A DNA stretch of 64,000 nt, taken from positions 62,001 through 126,000 of the forward strand of contig NZ_QFRI01000003.1 of the NCBI RefSeq assembly GCF_003143755.1, in the 5' to 3' direction. This document shows positions 43,710 through 62,404 of this stretch, piece after piece. Below the pieces are notes generated by a model that was given only the letters and a program-made list of their open reading frames with translations, was not told where the DNA came from and made no database searches. A program made the position numbers and the translations under genes. Numbering within the stretch: the first letter of the stretch is position 1; the number at the start of each line of letters is the position of its first letter. This DNA is from Algibacter marinivivus. GTDB lineage: Bacteria; Bacteroidota; Bacteroidia; Flavobacteriales; Flavobacteriaceae.

Positions 43710-43800
43710 CAAATTTACATTTGAAGTGACTTTAAAAATTAATATTTAGCTTAAGGTATAGGTATGTGTAGATGAATGGTAGATTTGTGTAGATAAATAA
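43710..43800 (-). promoter_or_regulatory. LytTR-type site a with promoter of the receiver gene
   Basis: -7 box (minus TAAATTTG, 43710-43717) with half-sites at 43744 (ATTTAGCTTAAGGT), 43766 (GTGTAGATGAATGG) and 43787 (GTGTAGATAAAT), spaced 22 and 21 bp. The first lies 27 bp from the -7 box. A divergent -7-like box (TATCTTTA, 43826-43833) precedes the plus-strand gene at 43863, so both directions may be controlled. Confidence 0.65.
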
Positions 43801-43862
43801 AATTACAAGCAGTAATTAAATTATTTATCTTTACCATGTAGCGATTACCGTTCAAAAAATTA

Positions 43863-46800
43863 ATGAAAGAAACCTCAAATAAATACTTAATAGTTGCCTT
43901 ACTAATAGGAATAGCATTTCATGGCACTTCTATTTTCTTTACCTTAGAGACTACCTACGATGCTTTAATCCATTTGTTTTTTGCAGACCATTATGCAAAT
44001 AGTTGGTTTGAACCTTGGAATTATAAGTGGTACACGGGTTTTACTGTAATGAGTTACCCGCCTTTAGTACATCAGTCTATTGCAGCACTTTCATTAATAG
44101 GCGGACTGAAGTTTGGTATGTTTACTGTAGCCTTAATAAGCATTGTGCTTTTTATTACTGGTGTTTATCGTTTTTCGCTACTTATAACATCAAATAGAAC
44201 TGTTGCTGGGTATGCTTCCATTTTGGCTGTTTTCTCATCGTCTTTTGTAGAAACCTTGCATATATTTGGTCAATTGCCAAGTATTATTGGAATTTCTGTT
44301 TTAATGCATGCGTTACCCGAAATCTATTTATGGCTAAAAACAGGGCGTTATAAATACCTATTTACATCACTTTCTCTAATATCTGTTACGGTTACTTCTC
44401 ATCATGTTACGCCAATATTTGGAATGATATTCTTCATTTTTCCATTAATAGGTATGGTAATTATGGATGTATCAAGAGAACAAGTGGATTCGGTTAAAGC
44501 CATTACATTCAAGGTATTTATTAATAGCTTTTTTAAACTTTTTAAACGCATTATAAGTTTTGGAATGCTATCCTTAGTTATTATAGTTGGTTGTATTCTT
44601 CCCTATTGGATAAACTCTAAGAACAATCCAATAACTCAAGTTCCCATTCCACATGGGTCTAGAGACAATTTTTTAGAGATTACCTCATCTGGCTTGGTGT
44701 TCTTTTTAATTCCGTGGGGTGTTTTACTCATTTTATTGCCATATATATTCTATAGATATTACAGTAAGCGTTACTTGTTTTTTGGACTCTCAATAACTAT
44801 TCTTACCGTTTTAGGAACTGGAGGCACCACATTTATTCCACGTTTATTTTTAGGAGAAACAGCTTTTAATATCCTAACATTAGACCGTTTTACATTATGG
44901 GCATCTATTATGTCTTTACCGCTTTTTGGAGAATTTGTATATCGCTTTGTTGAAGGCGATTTAAAACAACTAATTCAAGATAAATTTGGTGCTATTTACC
45001 ACCGATTAATTGGAGGCATACTTGCAGGTCTCTTTTTATTCATGACCATTTTTACAATGAGTCTCAGTTATTTTAGACCCTCGCAACCTCAGCAAATAAA
45101 AATGTTACCTATTATTAATTTCCTGAATCAAGATCAGCATGATAATTGGCGGTATATGACTTTAGGTTTTGGAGACCAAATGGCTTGGTTATCAGCACAA
45201 ACCAACGCCATGAGTGTTGATGGTAATTACCATTCTGCAAGACGCTTACCAGAATTAACAACCCGACCTATAGAACGTTTAGAGAATTCTAAATTTAAAG
45301 GTGTTGAAGGTATTGGTTCATTACAGCAATTTTTAACCACACCTGAAAAATATAATTTCAAATATATATTCTCTAATGATAAATTTTACGACCCAATTTT
45401 ATATTTCTGTGGTTGGCAACGACTTCGTCAACTAGAAAACGGAATTCAAGTTTGGGAAAAATTAAATGTACCTCCTGTATCATCTATTTTACCTAAAGAA
45501 GATGTTGCAAAATGGCTGAAAATACTTTGGGGCATTATGCCTTTTTTAACAGTTCTTATTGCATTTATATTAAACATTCAAATGCTTTGGATAAATACGT
45601 TAAAGACTAAAGCAAAAGCTATTCCTGAATTTTTAAAATTTCAGAATAATTATACTAAGTTCTCAAGAGGATTGCTTAGAATTACCCATGTTTGGTCTAT
45701 TATTCTAGCAATTATAGTATTTTATGGTGTACACCTATTCTACATTAAAAATGATGCGCATCATTCTCCAGAAAATGCATTGCTAGCGTATTATGACGCA
45801 TTAGATTTTAAAGAATTTGAAACAGCTTACAGTCTTATAAACCCAGAAAGTAATTTACCTATTGCACAGTATATGTTAGAGATTTCGGTTACTGATGGAT
45901 TATTGAGTTCTTATGCTAAACTAGATGCTATTGAAACTATAGTAACTTCAAAAACCGATAGTTTAGCAACTGTAAAAGTGAATACTAAGTGGATTACACC
46001 TTTAGAAAAAATTAATAAAACCGATTATAAAACTTTAGTAAAACTGAAAGGGAAATGGTATGTAAACCCAGAGGATATTGATTTAGATTTACCACCAGAC
46101 CAGTTATACTCAGATAATGTTACCAAATATTTTAACCAAGGACGACGACGCATTACTACAGAACAAACCCACCACGAAGATGTTTTAAAACAACCTGTTT
46201 TAGAAATCTTATCAGCAAAACTGGTAAAACATAATGGTAGTTATGCACTAATTGGAGAAGTTCAAAATATAGATAATGTTCCTGCCGATGTAGTATTAAA
46301 AGGTACCTTATATAATGATGACAATAAACAACTAGCAACTTATAATGCTAAATATCACGTAAAGCATAAACTGATGCCTAAAGAAGTAAGTTCTTTTAAA
46401 ATTAATTTTGAAGGCATTGCATGGTCAAGAACACAAGATTCTATTCCAAAAACTTTTAATCCAGATGAATTTACACCTGTTGAATTTGAAGAACAACCCA
46501 CAAAATTCAACTTACAAGTAGCGGGAAATGTTTCAGGATCAGATTTATACAAAGGAACCTCAATAAGTGATTTAGATATTTCTGAAGAACAGATTACTGG
46601 TAAACTGTTTAATTCTGGATTAGCAGAAGTTACCATTCCGCAATTGTTATTTACGTATTATGATCAACATAAAAATATGCTTTGGGTAGATCATCAATTT
46701 ATTGCAGAAGGTATCAGGCAGCAGCGTCAACAATCGTTTGATTATCCCATTCTTAAAAATGACACGATTCAGGTTATAAACGAGGATATGAAAAACTGTT

Positions 46801-46952
46801 TTGTAAACGGGTTACCTAATGTATCTATTTCTAACAAAGTTGTTCCAAACAGAATTGAAAATCAAACACACACCGTTTTGCAACCCATAGAAAATAAAAA
46901 CTATAGTTTTATTAAAATTGAAATAAACACCTATATAGGAAACCCTAATTAA
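43863..46952 (+). CDS. Large membrane protein, PTPS-related/GT-C-like, with extracellular C-terminal domains
   Basis: 1029 aa. The first 580 or so residues hold about a dozen hydrophobic helices with a GT-C-like layout: D-A-L-I-H-L-F-F-A-D-H-Y in the first loop resembles the acidic motif of lipid-sugar-dependent transferases and the 6-pyruvoyl-tetrahydropterin-synthase-related membrane family. After a last helix (about 610-630) the soluble part contains an NTF2-like segment (about 640-740) and one or two Ig/FxLYD-like domains. It is probably the polymer-synthesis or transfer component of the locus. Stop and next ATG overlap by 1 bp. Catalysis is unproven. Confidence 0.7.
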   Translation: MKETSNKYLIVALLIGIAFHGTSIFFTLETTYDALIHLFFADHYANSWFEPWNYKWYTGFTVMSYPPLVHQSIAALSLIGGLKFGMFTVALISIVLFITGVYRFSLLITSNRTVAGYASILAVFSSSFVETLHIFGQLPSIIGISVLMHALPEIYLWLKTGRYKYLFTSLSLISVTVTSHHVTPIFGMIFFIFPLIGMVIMDVSREQVDSVKAITFKVFINSFFKLFKRIISFGMLSLVIIVGCILPYWINSKNNPITQVPIPHGSRDNFLEITSSGLVFFLIPWGVLLILLPYIFYRYYSKRYLFFGLSITILTVLGTGGTTFIPRLFLGETAFNILTLDRFTLWASIMSLPLFGEFVYRFVEGDLKQLIQDKFGAIYHRLIGGILAGLFLFMTIFTMSLSYFRPSQPQQIKMLPIINFLNQDQHDNWRYMTLGFGDQMAWLSAQTNAMSVDGNYHSARRLPELTTRPIERLENSKFKGVEGIGSLQQFLTTPEKYNFKYIFSNDKFYDPILYFCGWQRLRQLENGIQVWEKLNVPPVSSILPKEDVAKWLKILWGIMPFLTVLIAFILNIQMLWINTLKTKAKAIPEFLKFQNNYTKFSRGLLRITHVWSIILAIIVFYGVHLFYIKNDAHHSPENALLAYYDALDFKEFETAYSLINPESNLPIAQYMLEISVTDGLLSSYAKLDAIETIVTSKTDSLATVKVNTKWITPLEKINKTDYKTLVKLKGKWYVNPEDIDLDLPPDQLYSDNVTKYFNQGRRRITTEQTHHEDVLKQPVLEILSAKLVKHNGSYALIGEVQNIDNVPADVVLKGTLYNDDNKQLATYNAKYHVKHKLMPKEVSSFKINFEGIAWSRTQDSIPKTFNPDEFTPVEFEEQPTKFNLQVAGNVSGSDLYKGTSISDLDISEEQITGKLFNSGLAEVTIPQLLFTYYDQHKNMLWVDHQFIAEGIRQQRQQSFDYPILKNDTIQVINEDMKNCFVNGLPNVSISNKVVPNRIENQTHTVLQPIENKNYSFIKIEINTYIGNPN

Positions 46953-48154
46953 TGACATTGAAATATACATATTTACTTTTTTATGTATGGATGGTTTTAC
47001 TATCAATGCCTTCCTATGCAAACAATGGAGCTATAGAATTGATTACTAAAACCACTCAATTTGAAGCTGGTCAATCTATTAGCTTAAAGTTTTCTAATAC
47101 TGATAACGAGACACCAAGTTTGTATGTAAGTAACAGTTATGGCTCTACTATAATTAAGCCCGAAATAGATTCAGGAATTCTAAATTATCAAATCCCACAA
47201 TCTATAAGTAATAAAACAGGAGTTGTTAATTGGAAATTGTTAGCAAATAATTCGCTTTCTGGGGCATTTACAATTATATCCAAACAAAAGGCAGTAGCTC
47301 TAGAAACGTATTTAGGTCCACCAAGTATTCAAGCTGGCGGAACAGATTACTCCATGCTTGTTGTTATCCCCACAGATTATTTAGATAACCCTTTAGCTGA
47401 TAGCACCAAGGTTACCGTTAAACATCAGTTTTTAGACAATCAAAATGAAGAGGTCGTTCTTATGAAAAACAGAATTGCTTATAAAAACATCTATTCAGAA
47501 ACCAAAACAGGTCGAATTTTAGTGTCTTCAGAATGTTTGGGATTCAATTCAAAAGAATATACGGTTAATGTACTTCCCGCTATACCAACAGATTTTAATA
47601 TTTCGCATAGTAGAAATCATGACTATGCAGATGGCAATCAAATTACCACATTTTCTACGTCAATAATTAAAGATCAATTCGGGAATTTAGTGAGTGATGG
47701 CACTTATATTGATTTTTTTATCACAAACCGTTCAAACCATATTTTAAAAACTTCTAGCACAACTATAAAAGGGATTGCTGTTGCAAAAATGATTCATCCA
47801 GATCATGAAGACCAATGGACAGTTAAAGCCTTTGTAGAAGGTATGGCAGAAAGTAAACCCATTGAGTTAGCATACAAAACGATCATCTCAGATTTTAACG
47901 TGCTATTTTCAGAAGATTATAGAACGGTAACTATAGGGCCTTTAAAAAGTTTCATGAATCAAATGGTGCCTGATGGCTTAGAAGTATCGCTTTCAGTTTT
48001 TCAAAATGAGATAAAATTAAATACACTTACTAAAAGTTCTTTTGAAGGCTATGCCACATTCAAATTAGATACCAACAACTTCCCTAGTGAAAACTATACG
48101 CTTAAAATTGAAACCGCTGGTGTACAGAAAACATATCCGAATGTAAAGCTATGA
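46952..48154 (+). CDS. Exported multi-domain Ig-like protein
   Basis: 400 aa with a signal sequence (cleavage near S-Y-A-N). The rest is a row of beta-sandwich Ig-like domains (for example D-S-T-K-V-T-V-K-H-Q-F and I-K-D-Q-F-G-N-L-V-S-D-G-T, which resembles the invasin/intimin Big_1 type). Likely a periplasmic or surface scaffold for the polysaccharide machine. Start overlaps the previous stop by 1 bp and its end overlaps the next start by 4 bp, so the three genes are translationally coupled. Confidence 0.65.
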   Translation: MTLKYTYLLFYVWMVLLSMPSYANNGAIELITKTTQFEAGQSISLKFSNTDNETPSLYVSNSYGSTIIKPEIDSGILNYQIPQSISNKTGVVNWKLLANNSLSGAFTIISKQKAVALETYLGPPSIQAGGTDYSMLVVIPTDYLDNPLADSTKVTVKHQFLDNQNEEVVLMKNRIAYKNIYSETKTGRILVSSECLGFNSKEYTVNVLPAIPTDFNISHSRNHDYADGNQITTFSTSIIKDQFGNLVSDGTYIDFFITNRSNHILKTSSTTIKGIAVAKMIHPDHEDQWTVKAFVEGMAESKPIELAYKTIISDFNVLFSEDYRTVTIGPLKSFMNQMVPDGLEVSLSVFQNEIKLNTLTKSSFEGYATFKLDTNNFPSENYTLKIETAGVQKTYPNVKL

Positions 48155-49668
48155 CAGGTATAAATAAAAACATATTGCGTAGTGTTTTAGTGCTGTCTTA
48201 CATCGCTATTATTGCTTTGGTACTATTTGGCATTGGCAGTTTATACAGCTATTTAAACACGGGAGCCGACCGAAGTACTATGCTGCATACCGAAATTAAA
48301 AAGATAGACCAATACTTACCAAAACTGGAATGGGCGCCTTTAAATAATGAAGGCAGACCTATGGATGCACAAACTCTAAATGCACTTCAAAATGATTATT
48401 TAGATGCTTGGTATGTAAAACATGTGGCCTATAAAACGAATACACTAGCAGGTATTGAAGATTATTATACTGAAAATGCTAGAAAAAACATAACTGCCTT
48501 TGTAGCTCAAAATAAATTAAATCATATTGCTATTGAGGGCACTACTTTAGAGCATCATCTTTCGCTTGATTTTTTTAGTGAAGATGGCCAATTAGCTGTT
48601 GTTACAGATAAAAATGTTATTGAATTTAAACGTGTTTTTGAAAATTACACGCTCCAACTAGAAACCAAAGAGCAGTCTACTTATAAACTTATTTTTCTTT
48701 TAGAAGATGGCTTTTGGCGTATCCGACACATGATAAAGGAAAAAAGCAAAGATTATAAAAATAAATTTGCTCATGCCAGTACTGAAGTTTCAAAAGTAAA
48801 AGGTATTAACTATTATCCTCAAGCTTCTCCCTGGGACATGTATGGCGATAAGTTTGATGCTGCTATTATTACTAAAGATTTTAAAATCATAAAAGAAGCA
48901 GGCTTAAACAGTATCAGAATATTTATTCCTTATGAAGATTTTGGAAAAGCCAATGTGAAACCTGAAAAACTAACGAAACTAAAAACTGTTTTAAATTTAG
49001 CTGAAGCTGAAAAGTTAAAAGTAGTAGCCACATTATTTGATTTTTATGGCGACTACACAGTTTTAAATTGGACGTTGAATCAACATCACGCTGAAACAAT
49101 AGTATCTGCATTAAAAGATCATTCCGCTCTTTTGGCTTGGGATATTAAAAACGAACCTAATTTAGATTTTGAATCAAGACATAAAGATTTAGTAATCGCA
49201 TGGCTTGATAACATGATTGATTTAGTAAAATCTACAGACCCAAAACATCCTGTAACCATTGGTTGGTCTAATGCAGAAAGTGCTACAATTCTAAAAGATA
49301 AACTAGACTTTATTAGTTTTCATTACTATGAAGATTTGGATGATTTAGAAGCTACATACAAGCATTTAAAATCTGAAGTTACTAATAAAACTATAGCTAT
49401 TACAGAATTCGGGCTGTCGTCTTACAAAGGATTTTGGAATCCTTTTGGGAATAATGAAGACGATCAAAGTGACTATCATAAAAAAGCACAAGGTATTTTT
49501 AGTGAAAACGATATCAATTTTATGTCTTGGACACTTTACGACTTTACTGAAATACCAAAAGAAGTCGTTGGACGACTCCCTTGGCGAAAACAGGCCCAAG
49601 AACATTTTGGATTTATTGACCAAAATGGAGAGACTAAGCCCGCTTTTAAATATATTTCCAAAAAATAG
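48151..49668 (+). CDS. Membrane-anchored glycoside hydrolase (GH5-like)
   Basis: 505 aa. An N-terminal membrane helix (about 10-32) anchors it; residues about 70-200 form an NTF2-like domain that ends in D-G-F-W-R-I-R-H-M; from about 215 a TIM-barrel hydrolase follows: G-L-N-S-I-R-I-F-I-P, W-D-I-K-N-E-P-N (acid/base Glu), H-Y-Y-E and I-A-I-T-E-F-G (nucleophile Glu). Hydrolases of this type are often built into exopolysaccharide operons to trim or release polymer. It ends the three-gene plus-strand unit. The polysaccharide substrate is unknown. Confidence 0.8.
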   Translation: MTGINKNILRSVLVLSYIAIIALVLFGIGSLYSYLNTGADRSTMLHTEIKKIDQYLPKLEWAPLNNEGRPMDAQTLNALQNDYLDAWYVKHVAYKTNTLAGIEDYYTENARKNITAFVAQNKLNHIAIEGTTLEHHLSLDFFSEDGQLAVVTDKNVIEFKRVFENYTLQLETKEQSTYKLIFLLEDGFWRIRHMIKEKSKDYKNKFAHASTEVSKVKGINYYPQASPWDMYGDKFDAAIITKDFKIIKEAGLNSIRIFIPYEDFGKANVKPEKLTKLKTVLNLAEAEKLKVVATLFDFYGDYTVLNWTLNQHHAETIVSALKDHSALLAWDIKNEPNLDFESRHKDLVIAWLDNMIDLVKSTDPKHPVTIGWSNAESATILKDKLDFISFHYYEDLDDLEATYKHLKSEVTNKTIAITEFGLSSYKGFWNPFGNNEDDQSDYHKKAQGIFSENDINFMSWTLYDFTEIPKEVVGRLPWRKQAQEHFGFIDQNGETKPAFKYISKK

Positions 49669-49670
49669 TT

Positions 49671-50873
49671 TTACACAACTGCTACACTAGATTTTGTTTT
49701 CTTTGAAATAATAGTTTCAAAGGACTCTAAATACATATCTGCAATTTTAGACATCGGGTGTGCCGTAGCCGCTTTATAATTGGCTTTACCTAATGCCGTT
49801 CTATAAGTTTCGTTTGTCACTATGTTTTCAATAGCAGTCGCTAAACTTTCTACTGATGTTGGCTCGAAAAACTCCCCTCTATACCCTTCATCTTGTACTA
49901 ACAACGCTAAATCTCCTAAATCTGGCATTACTACCGCTTTACCATAACTTCCAGCTTGGTGAAGTACGCCTGAGCTTCCTGTTGTTGATGTATATGGAAA
50001 TACAACTACAGCACTTTCATTAAATAAAGTTGGAACTTCATGTTCTTCTACATAACCAGTAAAACGCAATTGTGGCACATGCTTGTAATCTTCTTGTACT
50101 TTAGCTAAATAACCTGGTACGTTTGGATTATCGGTTCCAGCAATTACAACTTCTAAATTTAATCCTGTAGATTGTCTTACTTTTTCAACAGCCTCAATCA
50201 TACCCTCAACTTTTTTATACGTTCCAAACTTTCCAAAAGTCATAATTTGTATAGGAGAAGTTGAAACTTTATAATCTGGTTCTTCAGGAATTTCAAACGT
50301 ACCATGCGGAATTAACTTTACGTTTGTTGCATTATATTTTTCTTCCAAAATATCAACATACTTTTGCATCGTAACAGCAACAGTATCTGCTTGAAGAATT
50401 AATCGCGTTAAACTTGAACCTATAAATCCGTAAATTTTTTGCATCAATTTATTACTTGTGAACCCTGCACTTCCCAAATCTACTTCTTCAAGAATATTAT
50501 GTAATAACACAATATTTGGAATCTTTTTTAGCTTACAAACTAATGGCAACATTAAACCTAAGGCAGCAGCCACTTTTTTATCTCCAAATTTCATAAACTG
50601 TAAATTGAATAAAACAGCATCTGGTTTAACTTGGTTTATAGCTTTAGTTACATTTAAAATGTTTGCATAGCTATTAAATGTCCAACATTCTTTTATTGTT
50701 ATTTTACAACCTGCTTCTGTAAATTCAACATCTTTTTTACCTTCAGTAGTATCTGTTAATAATACCAATTCTGTAACATCTTCTTTTTGTCTAAAGTGTT
50801 TTACCAAATGGTATGCATATTCATTTAAAGTTACTTTACTTGGTGGATATGCTGTTACGATTGCTAATTTCAT
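49671..50873 (-). CDS. Glycosyltransferase family 4
   Basis: 400 aa, GT-B fold. N-terminal Rossmann domain (A-I-V-T-A-Y-P-P-S), C-terminal domain with M-T-F-G-K-F-G-T-Y-K-K, F-T-G-Y-V-E-E-H-E-V and the E-x7-E-like region in F-P-Y-T-S-T-T-G-S-S-G-V-L-H-Q-A-G-S-Y-G-K. It adds sugars from nucleotide donors, probably to a lipid-linked repeat unit. It is transcribed from its own site-b promoter. Donor and acceptor are unknown. Confidence 0.88.
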   Translation of the reverse strand: MKLAIVTAYPPSKVTLNEYAYHLVKHFRQKEDVTELVLLTDTTEGKKDVEFTEAGCKITIKECWTFNSYANILNVTKAINQVKPDAVLFNLQFMKFGDKKVAAALGLMLPLVCKLKKIPNIVLLHNILEEVDLGSAGFTSNKLMQKIYGFIGSSLTRLILQADTVAVTMQKYVDILEEKYNATNVKLIPHGTFEIPEEPDYKVSTSPIQIMTFGKFGTYKKVEGMIEAVEKVRQSTGLNLEVVIAGTDNPNVPGYLAKVQEDYKHVPQLRFTGYVEEHEVPTLFNESAVVVFPYTSTTGSSGVLHQAGSYGKAVVMPDLGDLALLVQDEGYRGEFFEPTSVESLATAIENIVTNETYRTALGKANYKAATAHPMSKIADMYLESFETIISKKTKSSVAVV

Positions 50874-50909: not shown

Positions 50910-50980
50910 CAAATTTGGGGTTTTATTCATCTAAAATCAGTCACTTGTAGACCGGATGACCTTTAGTGTAGACGAATGGT
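50910..50980 (-). promoter_or_regulatory. LytTR-type site b with promoter of GT4 gene
   Basis: Half-sites TTGTAGACCGGATGAC (50945) and GTGTAGACGAATGG (50966) are exactly 21 bp apart. A -7-like box (minus CAAATTTG, one mismatch to TAnnTTTG) lies at 50910-50917, 28 bp away. The upstream neighbour is the 3' end of the flippase gene, so this promoter serves GT4 alone. Confidence 0.65.
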
Positions 50981-50993
50981 AATTCTCTTTAGA

Positions 50994-52244
50994 TTAAGCT
51001 ATTTTAGATTTTAATTGATTGTATTTAAAAAAGGATAATTGAATGCACAATAATAATAACATAGCTATAATTTGCATGTGCACCACTTGTTCTAAGCTAT
51101 CATGATAAAAAATAACTAATCCCATTTGAAGCATTCCAAATAGCCCTGAAATTACTACGGGAACATATTTATCTAAAGACAAGTAGTAATATGCAAAAAT
51201 ATTAGAGATAGCAAACATTGAGGTAGCAACAGCATATTTCCACAACAAAGGCGCCATGGCTATGTAACTATCTCCAAAAAGCAGCGTGATAATCGTTTCT
51301 GGAAAACTTAAACAAACCACAATAATACTTATTGAAATAGCTGCTATATAACCCACATACTTAAAAAGTGTTGGTGCTGTTTCTTTCCCTTCTTTTTTAA
51401 GTTGAACTACAGTTGGCAGCAACAACATAACAAACATCCAAGCGATGAAGTAAACAATGCGACCAATTAAAGCTAAAGACGCATACAAACCTGCCTCATA
51501 TGATTCAAAGTAATGCTTTACTAAAAGAATATCACTATTATTTATTATGATTTGTGTGAGTTCATAAAATGCAGTTATTATAAAGAAACTTTTTATTTCT
51601 TTTGAATGTGTTTTACTTAATACCAATGCTTTTTTTGGAATGATACTTGGGAATTTAAAAGGAATCAACCCAAATACAAATGATGCTAGAATACCAACCG
51701 CAATAACAACTGACGATTGGATATCGAAAATTAAAATAAGTCCAAGGGTAATAATTAATCTACTTAACATTTCGCCTTGATATGTTATCGATAATGCTTT
51801 AAAAGCTTTTTTGCCTTGAAATATTCCCCTGTTCACACTCATTAAAAAATAAAGTGGTACACCACAACCAAAAACAATAAACATATTTGATGATGATGTA
51901 TTAAATAGGTTTTGCAATTGGTTTGCAAACATTATAATGAGTATTCCCATTAAAACGCCAACCAAAAGTGCATTTTTATATACTTTAGAAATAAAACTTT
52001 TAAACACTTCGTTTTCAAAAAGTACAGAGAATTTTGCGGTAACTAACTGAAATGTCATAGCTGCAAAACTCAATACTAATAAAAATGTAATGAGTACTGC
52101 CGCATCTGCAAATTGCGCTGGTCCTAATAGTCTCCCAAGAATTAAATTATATAAATAATTCCCACCGTTTACAACAAGAACACTTAACATAAATAATTGC
52201 TCTGGCGAAATTTTTTTAGATTTTAAAGTGGCTATAATTTGCAT
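50994..52244 (-). CDS. Wzx-like polysaccharide flippase
   Basis: 416-aa integral membrane protein with about 12 predicted helices, of the MVF/PST flippase superfamily. It should move undecaprenyl-linked oligosaccharide to the outer leaflet. Landmarks: L-G-R-L-L-G-P-A-Q-F-A-D near helix 1 and Y-E-A-G-L-Y-A-S-L-A-L-I-G-R in the middle. It follows the STAS gene by 32 bp on the same strand and is probably co-transcribed from the site-c promoter. Confidence 0.85.
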   Translation of the reverse strand: MQIIATLKSKKISPEQLFMLSVLVVNGGNYLYNLILGRLLGPAQFADAAVLITFLLVLSFAAMTFQLVTAKFSVLFENEVFKSFISKVYKNALLVGVLMGILIIMFANQLQNLFNTSSSNMFIVFGCGVPLYFLMSVNRGIFQGKKAFKALSITYQGEMLSRLIITLGLILIFDIQSSVVIAVGILASFVFGLIPFKFPSIIPKKALVLSKTHSKEIKSFFIITAFYELTQIIINNSDILLVKHYFESYEAGLYASLALIGRIVYFIAWMFVMLLLPTVVQLKKEGKETAPTLFKYVGYIAAISISIIVVCLSFPETIITLLFGDSYIAMAPLLWKYAVATSMFAISNIFAYYYLSLDKYVPVVISGLFGMLQMGLVIFYHDSLEQVVHMQIIAMLLLLCIQLSFFKYNQLKSKIA

Positions 52245-52276: not shown

Positions 52277-52555
52277 TTATGCTGCTACTGACATATTAAT
52301 AGATTCATAAATGTCTTTACAACCATAACCAATCACTGAAAACGCTTTATTATAAAATTCTGCTGCTTCAAAAAGATCCTCTATAACTTTCAAGCCATTC
52401 TTATCAATAGCTGTAACCTTATCAATATTTATGGTTAGAGATTTTGAATAAGCTAATAAGAACTCTAAATGATTTTTAAATTGTTTTACTGTAGTATTAT
52501 TAATAGTGCCTTCTACTAAAAATGTTCCGTTGTTCTCTTTAATTCTAAGTGCCAT
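52277..52555 (-). CDS. STAS-domain protein without the phosphorylatable Ser
   Basis: 92 aa, one STAS domain: strand G-T-F-L-V-E-G-T-I, then the switch loop A-I-D-K-N-G-L-K-V-I where anti-sigma antagonists have D-S-S-G. The usual phosphorylated Ser is Lys/Asn here, so regulation must be by another way or the protein is constitutively active as a binding module. It heads the STAS-flippase unit at LytTR site c. Confidence 0.8.
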   Translation of the reverse strand: MALRIKENNGTFLVEGTINNTTVKQFKNHLEFLLAYSKSLTINIDKVTAIDKNGLKVIEDLFEAAEFYNKAFSVIGYGCKDIYESINMSVAA

Positions 52556-52593: not shown

Positions 52594-52663
52594 CAAAGAT
52601 GCTTTAAGAATCAGCGTAAGACTCTTGAATTTCGTTCAGGTGCAAGTTGCTGTAGACGAATGA
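52594..52663 (-). promoter_or_regulatory. LytTR-type site c with promoter of STAS gene
   Basis: Strong half-site CTGTAGACGAATGAT (52650) plus a weaker one at 52629 (ATTTCGTTCAGGTG), 21 bp apart. A -7-like box (minus CATCTTTG) is at 52594-52601, 28 bp from the weaker half-site. The strong half-site lies within the loop of the inverted repeat 52637-52691. Confidence 0.55.
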
Positions 52664-52691
52664 TTCAATACTATTGATTAACTTGCACCTG
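52637..52691. repeat. 12-bp inverted repeat around LytTR site c
   Basis: CAGGTGCAAGTT (52637-52648) and AACTTGCACCTG (52680-52691) are perfect inverted copies with 31 bp between them, enclosing the strong LytTR-type half-site. It lies between the divergent STAS and TPR-barrel genes. Confidence 0.7.
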
Positions 52692-52709
52692 TAATAAATT
52701 AAACACACT

Positions 52710-55355: not shown

Positions 55356-55368
55356 GATTATTATAGAA

Positions 55369-55463
55369 TTTCATACTAATAGTCTCCAAAACTATCAAAA
55401 AGCTTATATTAACAAACTGTTGTTCAAAACGCCTCATGTATGATGTGTTGCGGTAGTATGAAA
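55369..55463. repeat. Inverted repeat upstream of the HEPN-like gene
   Basis: TTTCATACTA (55369-55378) and TAGTATGAAA (55454-55463), a perfect 10-bp inverted pair separated by 75 bp, inside the 210-bp gap. The rest of the gap contains an atypical, less AT-rich stretch (55480-55550). Confidence 0.5.
55387..55416 (-). promoter_or_regulatory. Promoter of the HEPN-like gene
   Basis: Minus strand: TTTG (55413-55416), 18 bp, then TAGTTTTG (55387-55394), a good match to the -33/-7 pattern 32 bp before the ATG at 55355. Confidence 0.5.
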
Positions 55464-55565
55464 CTAAGTTAGCAAAATATCATGACCAATAGGGAAACGT
55501 CACGGGTATTAAGAAGTTGGCAAGAACGAGCAATTACTTATAGCCATTGTTGTATGCAGTTTTTA

Positions 55566-56534
55566 TTACTTTTTATAATAAATACCGAATCCATCATTTG
55601 GCATAAAACCATTTTCCATTTTGAATCGTAATTGTTTATTTCCTAATCGTGAATCTTCAATTACATATAGATCATTATTTCCTAAATCAAATAATCCGAT
55701 TTCAAAATTTTCTGGAATTATAATACTAAAGTATAAGTTTGAACAATAAGTATTCATCTTAAATAAATGATAAGGGTTATCTAAAATGGAATACTTGAAT
55801 TTGTGTTTATATTCTACAAAAAATTCCCTCTTAGATTCAAATATGGTCTCGAATTCCAATACATCTCGTTCTAATTTATCCATGAAGTCAATTTCATCGA
55901 CTTTATAAGCCATTAATTGCGCAGAATATTCTGTTTGAATCTGATTATTTATTGGGTGTTTAAATTTAAAATACTTCTGAGTTTTGTCTGGTAAAACTAA
56001 TACTCTGGTAAATTGATAGAATTCAATTTCATTATTATCTATTGACGAAACATCAACCTGAATTTCTAAATTTCTAAGATAAAACTCAGAGTAAACGGGT
56101 GAGAATTTTGTGGTTAGTTTGTGAAAAAATGAATTATAAATTTCTGGAAAGCTCTCCTCACTAATTATTTTATTTATCTTTTTTCGAAGCTTTTGAAAAT
56201 CTTTTGAATCTGCATTCGGAGTTGTCAGTTTTTTTAACTCTTTGTTTTTCAAAAAAACAAAAACTGATAATAGTACAAACAAAATTAACAATGTAATGTA
56301 GCTGCCTTTTGTAAAAAGTAGTTGAAGGATTAAAATATAGAGGTCTACATCATTATTATTATACCTTTCATTTAAGTAAATAAATAAATTTTCAAAATTT
56401 TCATCAAAACCTAATGCCAATGCTTCTCTAATTATGGCAGCAGTAATTAGAAAAAGAATGTAACTAAGTGTTTTTTTTTGAAATATTATTTCTAATGCCT
56501 TATTCAATAAGTTTGAGTTTTTAATTGCATACAA
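55566..56534 (-). CDS. Membrane protein of unknown function in defence-like island
   Basis: 322 aa. Two hydrophobic helices near the N-terminus (about 23-40 and 68-90) and a soluble C-terminal domain of about 220 residues with no known motif. The start at 56534 is TTG; no ATG offers a better one. The gene is bracketed by the inverted pair GTTGTATGCA (at its start) and TGCATACAAC (just after its stop), 10 bases each. It follows the AbiTii gene by 25 bp. Function unknown; guilt by association with defence. Confidence 0.5.
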   Translation of the reverse strand: MYAIKNSNLLNKALEIIFQKKTLSYILFLITAAIIREALALGFDENFENLFIYLNERYNNNDVDLYILILQLLFTKGSYITLLILFVLLSVFVFLKNKELKKLTTPNADSKDFQKLRKKINKIISEESFPEIYNSFFHKLTTKFSPVYSEFYLRNLEIQVDVSSIDNNEIEFYQFTRVLVLPDKTQKYFKFKHPINNQIQTEYSAQLMAYKVDEIDFMDKLERDVLEFETIFESKREFFVEYKHKFKYSILDNPYHLFKMNTYCSNLYFSIIIPENFEIGLFDLGNNDLYVIEDSRLGNKQLRFKMENGFMPNDGFGIYYKK

Positions 56535-56559
56535 CGTGATTCTGTATGACTAGTTATTT

Positions 56560-57537
56560 TTAAAAATTAGCTAACAATGTTTCTATTTCAGCAATTATTG
56601 GTTCTGTTTGTGAATTAGAATCTACTTTGGATAAAATATCATAAGTCGTGTTCAATGATTGACTTATTATAGTTTGTTTCGGTTTTTCTCTTTTTAATTG
56701 ATTTAAAACTCTTTCTGATTCAGATAAAATATCTTCTTTGTCTTCTTCGTTTAATTCTAACTTATCAACTATTATATTAATTTGTTCAACAAGGTTTTTT
56801 ATCTCTTCTTTTTTTAAGCTGTTTATTTCCAGTTGTTGAGTTATGTTTGTTCCTGTCGCTGTATTAATTTTAGCATTATTACCTGTGTTTATAGTGTTCC
56901 CTTCCCCAACGTTTGACGTATTGTACTGATTTCCCATAATTACATTAATAGTCTTAGTAATATTTTCTTTTATGTCATCGCTAATATCTTCAATGTTTTT
57001 TGGTAAATCTGGAAATTCGGTTTCTAGGTTTAACATAAAGTCTAAAAATTTGCTTCTAATTTCGGTTAGAGTTTGCGTAATTGTAGAAATATGAGCCATT
57101 TTCTTTATATCTCTTATTTCGCTTTTAAATCCGCTTTCTTTCATATGCCGAGTTAATAAAGCCCAAAAATCAATAGGAAGAATTTTAATAAGCGTGTCGT
57201 TATCTTTGTGGTTTACATAGCTTTCTAATGTTTTTACGCTATCTCTAAATTCAAATTGAACAAAGAAGTTTCTTAAATTTTCATCACTAATAAACGAAAT
57301 TGGAACAGGTGTGTTTTCTTGCAAAGCATAACCCTGTCTTAAAGTACAAGATGAAGTAGCAGAACCAACTCTATATTCAGGAAGAGTATCACTCATAGAA
57401 TACCCATTGATTTCTTTATTTACCCACTCCAATAATTTTTTATTTTTTAGTCTAGAAGCAAACACTTTAGTCTTGAGCAAAGGGCTAACTAACGATTTAT
57501 CATCATTTGTTAAATCATATATTATTTGTTGAATCAT
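56560..57537 (-). CDS. AbiTii-domain protein (predicted abortive infection)
   Basis: 325 aa. The N-terminal 120 residues match the AbiTii domain: I-Y-D-L-T-N-D-D-K-S-L-V-S-P-L-L-K-T-K-V, then K-K-L-L-E-W-V-N-K-E-I-N-G-Y and L-P-E-Y-R. A central low-complexity Asn/Thr/Gly stretch (about 197-236; N-T-S-N-V-G-E-G-N-T, T-G-N-N-A-K) leads to a helical C-terminus. AbiTii belongs to plasmid-borne lactococcal abortive infection; activity here is inferred. Neighbours are AbiGi-like and membrane proteins, 8-25 bp away. Confidence 0.78.
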   Translation of the reverse strand: MIQQIIYDLTNDDKSLVSPLLKTKVFASRLKNKKLLEWVNKEINGYSMSDTLPEYRVGSATSSCTLRQGYALQENTPVPISFISDENLRNFFVQFEFRDSVKTLESYVNHKDNDTLIKILPIDFWALLTRHMKESGFKSEIRDIKKMAHISTITQTLTEIRSKFLDFMLNLETEFPDLPKNIEDISDDIKENITKTINVIMGNQYNTSNVGEGNTINTGNNAKINTATGTNITQQLEINSLKKEEIKNLVEQINIIVDKLELNEEDKEDILSESERVLNQLKREKPKQTIISQSLNTTYDILSKVDSNSQTEPIIAEIETLLANF

Positions 57538-57545
57538 ATAGTTTT

Positions 57546-58289
57546 TTAAAAATCATTAATTATCCTTTCACAAGAAATAATTCTAGTAGTTAATCTATCA
57601 ACTTCATCCATCGTATAATTTTTGCCTTTTACTTGTCTAATATGGTTTATTAGTTCATTTATCTCACTTTCCTCTTTTACAATCAAATACATAATGTTGT
57701 TAGCATTGAAATAAAGTCTTTCATCTTTTAATTTATCATTTGCGTTTTGTTTTTTTTCTGGTGTATTATAATGTTCTTCATTTATAAAATCAGGAATTTC
57801 TCTATTCAAAGTCATTCTTGGAACAAATCTCCATTCTCTTTCATCAGCAAATCTATATTTTTCAATTTCTTCTGTTCTCCTAATAAGCTTGCCTTCATAC
57901 TCCTTAGAGAGTCTTAGCAAGTCTATAATTGTTCCTTTATGTTTTAGGTCAATGTTTATATCGTCAAGAAATTCTTTGATATTTGCTCTAAAGTTTGTTG
58001 AAAATTCTGATTTTAAATTTTGATAAAAAACAGGAGAAAGCTTTTTTTCATTTGCCCAATCTTTACTTAAACCAATTCCATATTCTCCATATTTCTCAAT
58101 GTGTTCTGTTATTTCTGATATTTTTATATCGCAAAAAGATACCATTGGTACTGCAATTTTACCATCCTCTTTATCGTTTGGTAATTTTTCCAAGCAATAC
58201 TTTAATTTGAAGTTATCTCTTAGAATATCAAATAGTGCATTTTTGTTGGTAAAATGGAAAAGGGTTGATGGTGAAATACTCATTTTCAA
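57546..58289 (-). CDS. AbiGi-like protein
   Basis: 247 aa. The N-terminal L-F-H-F-T-N-K-N-A-L-F-D-I-L-R-D-N-F, then V-P-M-V-S-F-C-D-I-K-I-S-E-I-T-E-H-I-E-K-Y-G-E-Y-G-I-G-L-S-K-D-W and P-V-F-Y is the pattern of the AbiGi family (putative antitoxin half of the AbiG type IV system). The middle contains the E-R-E-W-R-F-V motif shared with this family. The AbiGii toxin is not seen; the AbiTii protein next to it may be a new partner. The ATG at 58289 is consistent with the family start. Confidence 0.75.
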   Translation of the reverse strand: MKMSISPSTLFHFTNKNALFDILRDNFKLKYCLEKLPNDKEDGKIAVPMVSFCDIKISEITEHIEKYGEYGIGLSKDWANEKKLSPVFYQNLKSEFSTNFRANIKEFLDDINIDLKHKGTIIDLLRLSKEYEGKLIRRTEEIEKYRFADEREWRFVPRMTLNREIPDFINEEHYNTPEKKQNANDKLKDERLYFNANNIMYLIVKEESEINELINHIRQVKGKNYTMDEVDRLTTRIISCERIINDF

Positions 58290-58312
58290 TAGATGGTTTT
58301 AATTAAACACTA

Positions 58313-58412
58313 CGGTTATATATAAGAATAGTTGCGGGTTTGTGTGCAAGAAATTTCCGAATAAAATTCAGATGTAGCAAACACGCAACTACATTGTTTT
58401 ATATCTAAACCG
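58313..58412. repeat. Nested 100-bp palindrome between two island genes
   Basis: Outer arms CGGTTATATATAA (58313-58325) and TTATATCTAAACCG (58399-58412), inner arms AGTTGCGGGTTTG (58330-58342) and CAAACACGCAACT (58378-58390). Two pairs of arms with an unpaired centre resemble the folded shape of an integron attC site; no integrase is in view. Confidence 0.5.
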
Positions 58413-58444
58413 CATTTATTTTTTTTCGATGTTAGGCATATTAT

Positions 58445-59329
58445 TTATTCGGTTTTATCTACTTTTCTATTCATTAAAGAACTTAAAAGAGGTGGTGAGT
58501 CATTGTGTGATTTTTTTTCCAATGTTTCACTTGGATTATAACTTGAAGCATCAATTAGAGAAGCAACTAATTTTTCCATTATTTCGTCTTTATCGGAACT
58601 TTCAGGTAGTTTTGCAATTTCTCTTTTATAGCCTTCGTAAGATTTAGCAAGACTTTCCTTATGAGCATATTCTTGTTCAAGTCTGCGATTTTGACTTTGC
58701 TGTTTACTTGCAAATAATGCAAGCCAAATTGTCGGAACAAAAAATGGTGCTCTTGCAAGAATATTCATAAATGCTCCTCCAACAGTTTCGCTGTCTTTAA
58801 TTGTCGTAACTGCATACCAAACCATTCCTATCATTGTTCCAATGAATACTATTGACCAAAGTATATTAGGTGTTTTGTAGCTCTTTTTTTGGTCGTGATA
58901 AGATTTTGCAAGTCCAGCAGATGTCGCACCAGGAAGTAAATCTTCAATTTTTGTTGATAATGTACCATACTTTTCTTCCCAATCAGAATGTAATTCCTCA
59001 AGTTCAGACTTTAATTCGGTGATTTTAAATTTTAAAGCTTCTTTGTCTTCTGTTGTTTTTCCAAATACTTTTGTTTCAAATTCCTGTACTTTAGTCTCGA
59101 TTTCGCTGATTTCGATATTATATTCAGTTACTTTTTCAAAAGTCTCATTCAGTTTTTCCGCTTTACTTGGAACTGCTGTATTTGGTTTTTTAACAAAATC
59201 ATTATATAATTCTGTAACGTCATTCAGTTCGGCTTTTAGAGAAGAAACTTCTTCTTTAGCTGTTCCAATAAACTTCTCAAATTTTTCTTCAAAAGTTTCA
59301 ATTCTTTCTTCTTTTTGTTCTTTTTCCAT
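58445..59329 (-). CDS. Coiled-coil membrane protein of unknown function
   Basis: 294 aa. Residues 1-145 are Glu/Lys-rich coiled coil (E-K-F-E-K-F-I-G, then E-I-E-T-K-V-Q-E-F-E-T-K-V), followed by two hydrophobic helices (about 160-180 and 192-212) and a charged C-terminal helix. Such coiled-coil/two-TM proteins are frequent in phage-defence loci, but I cannot assign this one. It is bracketed by the inverted pair GTTAGGCA (58433) and TGCCTAAC (59347). Confidence 0.55.
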   Translation of the reverse strand: MEKEQKEERIETFEEKFEKFIGTAKEEVSSLKAELNDVTELYNDFVKKPNTAVPSKAEKLNETFEKVTEYNIEISEIETKVQEFETKVFGKTTEDKEALKFKITELKSELEELHSDWEEKYGTLSTKIEDLLPGATSAGLAKSYHDQKKSYKTPNILWSIVFIGTMIGMVWYAVTTIKDSETVGGAFMNILARAPFFVPTIWLALFASKQQSQNRRLEQEYAHKESLAKSYEGYKREIAKLPESSDKDEIMEKLVASLIDASSYNPSETLEKKSHNDSPPLLSSLMNRKVDKTE

Positions 59330-59520: not shown

Positions 59521-59622
59521 GCGTTAGGGATTGAACGGCATGTTTGAAATCCCCGATCCCGATAGCTATCGGGAGAGGGATTGAGTAGTGAAAGCCCGAC
59601 CCGACCTTAGGCGGGTAACGCC
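59521..59622 (+). repeat. Dispersed repeat, copy F
   Basis: Plus orientation: GCGTTAGGGATTGAACGGC, ATGTTTGAAATCCCCGAT, the palindrome CCCGATAGCTATCGGG, GGATTGAGTAGTGAAAGCCC and end GGGTAACGCC. It combines the palindrome of copies C/D with the second half of copy B. The rest of the 59330-59708 gap is AT-rich, with the terminator at 59650. Confidence 0.85.
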
Positions 59623-59649
59623 CAAATAATTAACCTTACTTTATTATAA

Positions 59650-59685
59650 TAAAAAAAGGCAAAAAACTTACGTCTTTTGCCTTAC
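59650..59685 (-). terminator. Intrinsic terminator of the T9SS protein gene
   Basis: Minus strand: stem AAGGCAAAA / TTTTGCCTT, 10-base loop, then seven T; 24 bp past the stop at 59709. Confidence 0.75.
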
Positions 59686-59708
59686 CACCTAGAATAATTT
59701 GCTATTAA

Positions 59709-62315
59709 TTAATCCATGAGTAGTTTTGTGGTTTTATAATTGGTTTGGTTACTTCTAATTTTACAGAAATAGATACCAGAACTTAGGTTTCCGCGTTCTA
59801 GTTTTATTTCATTTTTACCAGATACTACACTAAATGGTATTTGTTTTACTAAGCGCCCTACTTGGTTGTAAACTAACAACTCTACATGTTCTGAGTTTTG
59901 TGCTGTAAAGTGTATGGTTGTTTGAGAGCTCATTGGGTTTGGTATGGCCACAGCATCTAAAGCTTTAGTTTCTGTTAAGCTAGCCACAGATAATGTGCTG
60001 CTTGTTGAGAAACGCAATTGCTCTAATGTCATGGATTTAGTAACTTCTGTACCATTTTCGGCTAACATGGTAAACACTATAGAGGTTATATCGTTTACTT
60101 CTAATGGTGTACCGTTGCTTGATTTAAATTCAGAAAATGGTAAACTATAATCTGTTAACTCTTCTGTTAAATCTATACTTGCTTTGTATTGTGTTTCCCA
60201 GTTGGTAACACTTTCTTTTACTAATCTTATAATAAGTGTTCCTGTACCTTTAGCTTGTAATTTAAAGCTGTTATACTCAGACAAATCTATGGGGTTAAAC
60301 TTTGGTGTTAACGCTCTGTAAGCCGCAATATATTCGCTAGTTGTTGCTTCTAAATTAATGTTACGTTCTACAGCATATTCATCGTCATCAAACTGAGTTT
60401 CGTTTGTTTCTACAGTATAGTTTGTAACGGTTGTAGTTGGTGCAGCATCATCGTATCCCCAAGGACCATCAGACATAAACAAATCATCTGGAGTTTGTAT
60501 ACCGTCTCCAATTCTAAAACCTATATCAAAAAGGTTTCCAGCTTCTACTTGAACATTAGAAATGTAATCGCCGTTTAATTCAATAATAGATGATACATAG
60601 TCTACGGTTTCTGTTTCTGTTCCTCTTAATCCGCCATCAAAAACAATAGCTTCACTCCTATTTGTATTTACAATTTGTAAATCTAGTTTTCCGTTACGGT
60701 ATGTTCCTTTTCTAACAAAAACTGTTGGTGGTGTTGAGTTGTTATAACTAGTAACCGGTTTTTGTACATCTAACAATCTTACCACTTCTTCTCCAAGACG
60801 TAATAAATCGTCTAAAGAATTTGACCAGATTTGGAAATTATAAAAGCCAACATTATTCTCGTATTTATCTAAATTCCAATGGCTTTCAATTCCGAAATTT
60901 GCACCATTGTTTATTGATTTTGCTGACAGACTTAAAACAAACTCTAAAGAGCCATCAATAGTTCTGATTAATGATTTAATAAATTGTTGTTCTTTAATTT
61001 CAATTGTAGATACCGAAATTAATTGCGCTCCTAATAATCTATCGCAAATGTATTTAGTATGCTCGTAAACGCCTTTATCTGTTTTTAATAACAAAATAGA
61101 AGCTACGGCATCGTTATTTCGCATATAATCAACTGAATAGATATCGGTTGCGTTTGTAATGTTTATTAAATCTTTTGGAGACGATTCTATAACATCTTCT
61201 TCATTGATAACATCTAATGGAATAAAATCTGATAATTGAAACCCATTACCTTTTCCAGCTTTAGTTTTACCATATTTAGATGTTTTTGAAAAACGTTTAG
61301 CAGCTGTTTTGTCAAATTTATAATTGCTCTTTGCTCTATTAAAATTACGTTTGCTGATTTGTTGAGAGAGTCTGTTGTTACTTTCTAAACCACCCTGGTT
61401 TGCACTTGAAGAAGTAGATAACTCAATTACTGGACACCCTGCATAACCAGAACAAGATGGATCTTCACAATCTATTAATCCGTCGCCATCATCATCAATA
61501 CCATTATCACAAATTTCTTGCGGTACTGGAGCTGTAGGACAACGTGCACCATCATTTTGCGCACTAGACGGTCCAAAAGCAAATAAATTAGATTCCATAG
61601 AGTTTGATCCATTTAACTCTTGAACACTTTGAATGACATATATAGTTCCTGTTTGGTTTGCCGATATATAAAAACGACCAGAAGCATCAAAATAAACCGC
61701 ACCATAAGTGTAATTTAAACCTGAAAGAATCGGCACTTCTCCCAAACTTTCCATAGCTCCAGTTTCGGCTTCTATTCTATATAGAATATTGGTTTTCTTT
61801 TCAACTGCATACAATTTTTTATCTACAGCATTAAATGCCCAATCGTGAATACTAATATTCTTAGATAGGTTTAACGTTTTAATATATTTTCCGTAGTTAT
61901 CAGAATCTGGATTTAAATCTACAGCATAATATGTTGTTCCACCACCTTTTAAATAGTAAATACCTTCAGCACTAACATCGCCTACATAACGACCACTAGT
62001 TGGTAACTCATCTATATAAAACGTTGTGGTTTTAAAGTTTTTCCCAATACGAACAATTGATTTTGCTGGTGTACTTAAAGACCCCCAAATAAAACCATCA
62101 GCAGGATTGTATGCTGTTGCATTTATATTGCCTTCTGCAACATCAGTTGCAACTGTATATGAATTTCCTGATGCTAAATCGATAGCATACACATCATTGT
62201 ATTGAAACAAGTATGCATTATAATCACAATTAAATGGTACGTCTTCTGAACCAACTCCTACTTGAGCATTAACTTGTGATATAATAACCAGTAATAATAG
62301 TAATATTCTTTTCAT
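59709..62315 (-). CDS. Large T9SS surface protein with calcium-like repeat
   Basis: 868 aa. Signal peptide (cleavage near V-N-A-Q), N-terminal propeller-like domain (about 25-255, DUF6923-like), then C-D-N-G-I-D-D-D-G-D-G-L-I-D-C-E-D-P (about 265-285), a thrombospondin-3/MopE-type calcium-binding loop. A middle region of unknown fold follows, a CBM11/CIA30-like jelly roll (about 670-765) and a type A T9SS C-terminal domain (I-P-N-P, L-L-V-Y-N-Q-V-G-R-L-V and G-I-Y-F-C-K-I). It is the fourth gene with a LytTR-type site, so it may bind or anchor the polysaccharide at the cell surface. Confidence 0.82.
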   Translation of the reverse strand: MKRILLLLLVIISQVNAQVGVGSEDVPFNCDYNAYLFQYNDVYAIDLASGNSYTVATDVAEGNINATAYNPADGFIWGSLSTPAKSIVRIGKNFKTTTFYIDELPTSGRYVGDVSAEGIYYLKGGGTTYYAVDLNPDSDNYGKYIKTLNLSKNISIHDWAFNAVDKKLYAVEKKTNILYRIEAETGAMESLGEVPILSGLNYTYGAVYFDASGRFYISANQTGTIYVIQSVQELNGSNSMESNLFAFGPSSAQNDGARCPTAPVPQEICDNGIDDDGDGLIDCEDPSCSGYAGCPVIELSTSSSANQGGLESNNRLSQQISKRNFNRAKSNYKFDKTAAKRFSKTSKYGKTKAGKGNGFQLSDFIPLDVINEEDVIESSPKDLINITNATDIYSVDYMRNNDAVASILLLKTDKGVYEHTKYICDRLLGAQLISVSTIEIKEQQFIKSLIRTIDGSLEFVLSLSAKSINNGANFGIESHWNLDKYENNVGFYNFQIWSNSLDDLLRLGEEVVRLLDVQKPVTSYNNSTPPTVFVRKGTYRNGKLDLQIVNTNRSEAIVFDGGLRGTETETVDYVSSIIELNGDYISNVQVEAGNLFDIGFRIGDGIQTPDDLFMSDGPWGYDDAAPTTTVTNYTVETNETQFDDDEYAVERNINLEATTSEYIAAYRALTPKFNPIDLSEYNSFKLQAKGTGTLIIRLVKESVTNWETQYKASIDLTEELTDYSLPFSEFKSSNGTPLEVNDITSIVFTMLAENGTEVTKSMTLEQLRFSTSSTLSVASLTETKALDAVAIPNPMSSQTTIHFTAQNSEHVELLVYNQVGRLVKQIPFSVVSGKNEIKLERGNLSSGIYFCKIRSNQTNYKTTKLLMD

Positions 62316-62335
62316 GATATAATTTATTTATAGCA

Positions 62336-62404
62336 CAAAAATATATGACTAAGGCATCTTAAAATGCAATTTTCGATGGATGAAAATTAAGTGTAGACGA
62401 ATGG
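62336..62404 (-). promoter_or_regulatory. LytTR-type site d with promoter of the T9SS protein gene
   Basis: -7 box TATTTTTG (minus, 62336-62343), then half-sites at 62370 (TTTTCGATGGATGA) and 62391 (GTGTAGACGAATGG), 21 bp apart, the first 27 bp from the -7 box. It lies in the gap between the LytTR gene and its apparent target. Confidence 0.68.

Follow-up and report, generated by a model that had tools for sequence, protein, structure and literature searches.

A shared direct-repeat array suggests LytTR control of five promoters at a polysaccharide locus of Algibacter marinivivus

Which regulator, acting through which DNA element, could govern the separate transcription units of a bacterial polysaccharide locus? 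The question is raised by a stretch of 64,000 nucleotides from Algibacter marinivivus (RefSeq assembly GCF_003143755.1, contig NZ_QFRI01000003.1, positions 62,001 to 126,000 of the forward strand; here the window), in which a repeated motif stands before several minus-strand genes and a gene for a LytTR-type response regulator lies close to the right edge. A first-pass annotation, made from the letters alone, had proposed that the LytTR protein controls four units through pairs of direct repeats. Comparison across genomes makes it very likely that it controls five promoters, through arrays labelled a to e below; that the protein binds these arrays, activates transcription, receives phosphate in a particular order and answers to nitric oxide (NO) is put forward with moderate confidence. 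The candidate arrays, their -7 boxes and the proposed regulator are listed here, with E values from the genome profile search described below.

43745..43800, minus strand: candidate operator array a, strong unit 43766-43779, extra upstream unit 43787-43800; E 9.3e-11, matrix score 45.2
43710..43717, minus strand: -7 box of array a, TAAATTTG, 62 bp from the strong unit
50945..51000, minus strand: candidate operator array b, strong unit 50966-50979, before a GT4 glycosyltransferase gene; E 2.9e-14
50910..50917, minus strand: -7 box of array b, CAAATTTG, 62 bp from the strong unit
52629..52684, minus strand: candidate operator array c, strong unit 52650-52663, before STAS and flippase genes; E 1.5e-17
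52594..52601, minus strand: -7 box of array c, CATCTTTG, 62 bp from the strong unit
62370..62425, minus strand: candidate operator array d, strong unit 62391-62404, before the gene of a DUF6923 protein sorted by the type IX secretion system (T9SS); E 1.4e-14
62336..62343, minus strand: -7 box of array d, TATTTTTG, 61 bp from the strong unit
L019:3887-3942, outside the window: candidate operator array e, -7 box TAATTTTA, 62 bp from the strong unit; E 1.2e-5
62426..63142, minus strand: LytTR response regulator, the proposed regulator; receiver PF00072 8.8e-18 and LytTR domain PF04397 2.2e-21, both above cut-off

The exact core, TGTAGAYGAATGR, occurs at 43767-43779, 50967-50979, 52651-52663 and 62392-62404 and has no further copy in the window, which bears out what inspection had suggested. 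Five exact matches are present in the genome of 3,335,904 bases, all inside 24.2 kb (C5:105767-129921); the fifth (L019:3909-3921) lies 3.9 kb past the window edge and is accompanied by a second unit at a distance of exactly 21 bp. The four sites first reported are all real, and the number of promoters has grown to five. The half-site alone, with up to three mismatches, is not enriched in the window (68 matches vs 56 expected, a count reached by 7 of 100 shuffles) and was discarded as evidence; the signal is therefore the exact core together with its arrangement. Allowing one mismatch over the whole genome gives 18 matches, 6 of them in the C5 stretch. Since the reversed pattern also gives 12, the 12 matches elsewhere look like background, and with a best matrix score of 5.4 in their 3-kb loci they were read as chance; the five promoters score 20.5 to 63.4. 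A profile of 94 positions (A2, R1), built from 41 of 48 aligned sites, recovered all five promoters, with E values between 1.5e-17 and 1.2e-5 and the next match at E 0.07. Since the model contains these five sites, the informative part is the absence of other matches. The first-pass annotation had suggested a genome-wide scan of this kind, in which many equally good sites before unrelated genes would speak against the idea; no such set of sites occurred in this genome.

What the sites look like is best seen in those 48 exact sites, drawn from the regions around LytTR in 20 genomes (the source genome and 19 relatives) and superposed at the strong unit, each read in the direction of its gene. 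They form an array of three 14-bp units with a period of 21, in which the strong unit, YCATTCRTCTACA, is in the middle; the latter was fixed by the search pattern, unlike the other aligned features. The upstream unit has T at -17 in 42/48 and C at -13 in 40/48, while the proximal unit at +21 has C at +29 in 40/48, mostly followed by GAAA or TAAA. Thus the partner half-sites that had been pointed out are real, as is the additional copy at site a, and the two direct repeats described at first, whose repetition and period hold up, belong to a three-unit array.

The -7 box, TANNTTTG-like, lies at +62 (A63 in 39/48, T66 in 42, T67 in 45, T68 in 36 and G69 in 29), and the arrays stop 27-28 bp upstream of it without overlap. 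Among 144 distinct exact sites, strict TANNTTTG is found at offsets 61-63 in 35 and at 82-83, one repeat period beyond the usual position, in 8, and only once elsewhere between 20 and 100. The equal distance to a -7-like box first remarked at four sites is thereby confirmed (61-62 bp from the strong unit), as is the small chance then assigned to it: shared spacing by chance is very unlikely. At the expected -33 position TTTG is seen in 9 of the 144 sites vs about 10 expected from base composition, so that no -33 element is conserved, and a -7 box without a -33 box is what would be expected where an activator replaces the latter.

If the LytTR protein is the ligand, arrays and regulator should travel together. 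Orthologs, defined by at least 55% identity, are present in 83 of 199 family genomes, the source genome included; the next match below this cut, a second copy in G024, has 48%, and the remaining matches listed have at most 44%. Sites combining core and box number 83 in these 199 genomes and are found in 48 of the 83 genomes with an ortholog vs none of the 116 others; 72 lie within 35 kb of the LytTR gene, every one in that gene's direction. The best 40 relatives hold 88 exact cores, counted without the box, in 35 genomes, of which 60 (31 genomes) lie within 33 kb of LytTR, all on one strand relative to it, where about 1.6 of the 88 would be expected by chance; the other 42 ortholog genomes hold 64 in 30 genomes, 37 of them (18 genomes) within 33 kb and likewise in the same orientation, giving 97/97 for both sets. 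Forty genomes chosen from the 116 without an ortholog contain 21 exact cores in 17 genomes. Over 397 family genomes, core plus -7 box is found at 148 sites in 89 genomes (reversed control, 3). Outside the family but in the same order the composite pattern was met in 1 of 246 genomes, compared with 8 of 50 family genomes in that draw; the single match (G599) lacks, by eye, the conserved C of its second unit and was read as chance. The pairing supports the control by LytTR first proposed for four units, now extended to five promoters with the LytTR operon among them.

Promoter by promoter, prediction also holds up on sites withheld from the model. A matrix trained on 40 sites, none before the LytTR operon, was applied at a threshold of 1e-5 per position to the 80 best named LytTR loci (first gene present in 78, 77 examined): 74/77 LytTR-operon promoters pass, vs 1/77 in the reversed control. 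DUF6923 promoters pass in 52/66 (control 0/66), the training set having held the DUF6923 sites of five relatives and the genome's own. Of these named loci, L093, L111 and L164 seem to come from contigs that are also represented by G044, G045 and G036. Altogether the matrix was run on the 20 regions, on these two promoters in the 80 named loci and on 7 further regions. In the 683,817 bases of the 20 regions it finds 128 sites of at least 8 bits on the LytTR strand, training sites included, and none on the opposite strand, with 2 in the control.

The target genes proposed in the window are these.

43308..43679, minus strand: single receiver protein, target of array a (PF00072 3.7e-28)
42098..43282, minus strand: receiver fused to a family-2 glycosyltransferase (receiver-GT2), operon a (PF00072, PF00535)
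41591..42079, minus strand: short GT2-like protein, operon a (weak PF00535, 20 of 23.3 bits, under cut-off)
40605..41573, minus strand: mannose-6-phosphate isomerase, operon a (TIGR00218 above cut-off)
49671..50873, minus strand: GT4 glycosyltransferase, target of array b (PF13692, PF00534)
52277..52555, minus strand: STAS-domain protein, target of array c (PF01740 1.7e-06)
50994..52244, minus strand: Wzx-like flippase, operon c (PF13440, PF01943)
59709..62315, minus strand: T9SS-sorted surface protein with DUF6923, target of array d (PF21959, PF18962)

Counting a site when it lies within 300 bp upstream of a gene, the 20 regions have one before the LytTR operon in 19/20, DUF6923 in 16/16, GT4 in 16/16, STAS in 12/13 and receiver-GT2 in 15/19. 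The missing STAS case (G121) has its site 18 bp before the assigned start codon, and in G044 the site precedes the preceding receiver gene instead of receiver-GT2. The flippase has its own site in 3/16 and elsewhere follows STAS or another gene. Within the same regions no site was found before H-NOX, Hpt or LytTR (0/20 each), the kinases or FIST, nor before TPR, GH505, u1029 (0/16 each) or u400. The divergent genes (TPR gene and u1029 operon) have an array in their own direction in 0/16 genomes and are not counted as targets.

Several further observations touch these genes and their neighbors. Proteins with receiver-GT2 (42098-43282) as their best match are present in the regions of 18/19 relatives with very unequal scores; receiver-GT2 is possibly a glycosyltransferase controlled by phosphorylation. 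The divergent conserved operon at 43863-49668 encodes a 1029-aa protein without a Pfam match, a 400-aa Ig-like protein and a glycoside-hydrolase-like protein. Within 52629-52720 a box, TGCAAGTTA, stands beside array c; the same box recurs between the STAS and TPR genes at a number of other sites. At this locus it makes an inverted repeat, AGGTGCAAGTT / AACTTGCACCT, that encloses the strong unit, and it is possibly part of the divergent TPR promoter.

Genomes in which the neighborhood has been broken up or replaced are particularly instructive. A site is kept before STAS-flippase in G144 and G329, and before flippase-GT4 in G100 and G301, though these genes are not beside LytTR: the G100 flippase site is 2.29 Mb from LytTR along the contig, or about 1.75 Mb in the opposite direction should the molecule be a circle, and that of G144 is on a contig other than LytTR's; LytTR was not located in G329 and G301. 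A different cluster follows LytTR in G109 and G140, its first gene encoding a UDP-glucose/GDP-mannose dehydrogenase (a Pfam call on G109, the G140 protein being 82% identical), and arrays are present there too. G808, of another family, has a LytTR protein 80% identical, most of the module and five arrays scoring 22.6 to 57.0; transfer between families likely brought it there. At still greater distance, three genomes of family f37 (LytTR 47-54% identical) contain eight arrays of at least 8 bits, all of them on the strand of LytTR, with a matrix trained on Flavobacteriaceae only. Within the 20 kb seen, they have only kinase, receiver, Hpt and LytTR in common with the window. In G737, the only annotated one, LytTR is followed by HlyD-like, DUF4114, UDP-glucose/GDP-mannose dehydrogenase and GT2 proteins. 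The f37 operon (L209, L210, L211; GT2, sugar dehydrogenase and HlyD-like in G737) is reminiscent of alginate-type synthase loci. It seems reasonable, on balance, to propose that LytTR and the 21-bp array have been kept across distant Bacteroidota as a general switch for exopolysaccharide, and that in Flavobacteriaceae, reinforced by positive feedback, it may link NO to polysaccharide at the cell surface. The parts exchanged would be the sensors (H-NOX/FIST or PAS/GAF kinases) and the polysaccharide machinery (flippase/GT4, UDP-glucose-dehydrogenase cluster or GT2-synthase/dehydrogenase operon).

What might set the switch is suggested by the operon that array e leads, which encodes a receiver (67408-67818 in continued window coordinates), H-NOX, a PAS histidine kinase, FIST, a histidine kinase, Hpt and LytTR in overlapping or closely spaced genes. 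Besides LytTR itself, two of its members fall wholly or partly in the window.

63152..63469, minus strand: Hpt phosphotransfer protein (PF01627 0.00038; 21.1 of 24.6 bits, below the Pfam curated cut-off)
63472..64000, minus strand: histidine kinase, continuing outside the window to 64521 (continued coordinates)

Array e heads this operon, and LytTR is therefore probably autoregulated. Two kinases, a single receiver, Hpt and LytTR supply the parts of a His-Asp-His-Asp relay, from which gene content its order is deduced, and the presence of H-NOX and FIST in the same operon makes NO the likely input. Hallmarks of H-NOX proteins are the haem-ligand His and the Tyr-x-Ser-x-Arg motif; both align here with solved H-NOX, and the HNOB domain is recognised at 2e-39 (PF07700). 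Across all 179 residues the protein aligns to chain 6bdd (E 3.4e-98), which is Kordia algicida H-NOX according to the accessible part of PMC7356049. The FIST protein was considered as NosP and rejected, scoring 63.8 bits vs an NCBIfam equivalog cut-off of 450 with FIST N and C domains only; a PDB search with it gave a chance match only.

A mechanism can thus be envisioned in which the kinases, governed by H-NOX and perhaps FIST, would send phosphate via receiver and Hpt to LytTR, and phosphorylated LytTR would bind two or three 14-bp units whose 21-bp spacing, two helical turns, would place it on one face of the DNA. Bound upstream of -7 promoters without a -33 element, it could recruit RNA polymerase to the receiver/receiver-GT2 operon, GT4, STAS/flippase, the T9SS surface protein and its own operon, the last of these creating positive feedback through array e. 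The word "activates" is used because of array position and the lack of a -33 element.

Known systems offer parallels. SypG of Vibrio fischeri is an NtrC-type regulator rather than a LytTR protein, with another operator and in another phylum. The chain it ends, HnoX-HahK-SypF-SypG, is nevertheless alike in placing H-NOX, a kinase, Hpt and a DNA-binding regulator over a polysaccharide locus; NO acting via HnoX inhibits HahK and syp (available text of PMC12369376), so NO may switch the present locus off. AlgR of Pseudomonas aeruginosa (alginate) is likewise a receiver-LytTR regulator with exopolysaccharide targets and a site resembling the present one: its sites, CCGTTCGTC and, at rhlI, CCGTTCATC, read CCGTTC[G/A]TC in the part of PMC4064291 consulted, and the strong unit, CCATTCGTC or CCATTCATC (CCATTC[G/A]TC), is identical at 8/9 positions, the differing base having been fixed by the search pattern. 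The present system differs in having a strict 21-bp array at a -7 box of the Bacteroidetes type, an array upstream of the operon that encodes the regulator, and a relay with H-NOX in the place of AlgZ. Direct repeats bound by LytTR regulators are imperfect, 8-13 bp long and separated by about 12 bp (same portion of PMC4064291). Period-21 repeats are present in all five promoters and in relatives. AgrA contacts DNA through His169, Asn201 and Arg233 (ibid., same portion). In the LytTR domain studied here the candidate contacts H38, H57, R58, R86 and R89 are invariant in 17/17 orthologs; the only confident structural match was 3d6w, and no alignment to AgrA was obtained.

LytTR Regulatory Systems (LRS) share autoregulation through direct repeats; as far as the excerpted PMC6193735 goes, they pair LytTR with a membrane protein, and in LRS-like operons of Bacteroides an 11-bp spacer separates the 11-bp repeats, which go with a TATCTTTG -7 box, a -33 box being listed for the promoters as well. 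In the present case LytTR is partnered by a phosphorelay, the array has a third unit and a -33 element is lacking. Membership of LRS was rejected, since the operon partners are Hpt, kinases, FIST, H-NOX and receiver with no adjacent membrane partner; the system follows the LytTR mode and is neither LRS nor AlgZR. Judging from search listings of open-licence PMC papers, we found no account of the motif, nor of H-NOX with LytTR in Bacteroidota; in the sections of PMC6769237 and of one other paper that were available, LytTR and H-NOX are mentioned apart, and the former proposes direct nitrosation for AgrA. The LytTR domain here has no cysteine, so nitrosation by the same site seems unlikely.

A number of observations weigh against control by LytTR as set out above, or against NO as its signal. 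Of the 83 genomes with an ortholog, 35 have no core-plus-box site. Among the core-plus-box sites themselves, also 83 in number, 11 are not near LytTR, some being on other contigs of drafts. Five of these 11 were looked at, the remaining six being those of G124, G138 (two), G195 and G147 (two): two precede polysaccharide genes (G144, G100) and three do not, the G034 site being inside a coding frame and read as chance and those of G179 and G164 having no clear target gene. No recognised target was found at L176 (G353) or L179 (G339) either. All counts ignore the shared ancestry of the genomes. G505 (LytTR 65% identity) has no site of at least 3 bits in 20 kb, G340 has one array, 1.55 kb before its GT4 gene, and G573 has three. 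Array e is the weakest of the five in the profile, three further LytTR matches in the genome (E 1e-30 or better) could bind similar DNA, and FIST misses the NosP cut-off. H-NOX is absent beside LytTR in G505, G340 and the three f37 genomes (20 kb viewed), and apparently also in G227 (L180), and the input can therefore not be NO in every genome. G227 has the array before a receiver gene, with LytTR beginning about 0.8 kb after the site, a gap too short for an H-NOX gene; the operon apparently exists there in a reduced form.

These last cases feed the alternative that fares best, namely that LytTR control is right but the signal is not NO perceived through H-NOX, which would respond to some other ligand or contribute only a little. 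The f37 operons manage without it, the G737 kinase carries PAS and GAF domains, and FIST and the second kinase are missing in 4/20 regions; H-NOX itself, on the other hand, is present in 20/20 regions and 76/80 named loci, and the active site of its full-length match 6bdd prefers NO in simulations (PMC7356049, accessible part). We regard this alternative as a serious one, if the less probable.

Repression, in general or in one phosphorylation state, appears unlikely. The sign of control is unreadable from sequence, and AlgR activates algD and represses rhlI (PMC4064291, portion consulted), yet the arrays end short of the -7 box and the missing -33 element is as expected of activator-dependent promoters. 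Less probable still, and by a good deal, is that the arrays are really bound by a different DNA-binding protein, inherited together with the locus: LytTR and the sites are usually linked, so linkage alone names no ligand, but of the five genes found in 20/20 regions (receiver, H-NOX, PAS kinase, Hpt, LytTR) only LytTR has a recognised DNA-binding domain, and sites stay with an unlinked flippase (G100), a different cluster (G109, G140) and the f37 genomes. That the repeats are mobile or structural, or belong to an RNA leader, a reading for which confinement of the repeated sequence to one region might speak, is hardly credible for conserved units with variable spacers that stand upstream of a -7 box at operon heads, in a single orientation and at a conserved distance from the promoter, and the RNA element was rejected because no Rfam match in the window reached the gathering score.

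Control by LytTR through the arrays would provide a testable operator code and regulon for a Bacteroidota LytTR regulator that operon structure links to H-NOX. If true, the polysaccharide output of many marine flavobacteria could become predictable; the 80 best named LytTR matches include Winogradskyella, Algibacter, Psychroserpens, Dokdonia and others. Two close LytTR copies per genome are seen in G131 (C1:1376298-1378238, side by side, 70-71% to the query) and G537 (C17, 68-71%).

The locus is flanked by molybdenum-cofactor genes and nitrate/nitrite assimilation genes (33926-40574 and L019:3951-19449). A nitrate reductase neighbor is found in 3/20 regions and 16/80 named loci, and the link to nitrogen oxides is therefore not general. 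Between the DUF6923 and TPR genes, 54861-59329 holds cargo that varies between genomes and includes defense genes, AbiGi and AbiTii here, their place being taken by GajA/GajB (Gabija) in G121; the interval resembles an insertion spot within a conserved locus.
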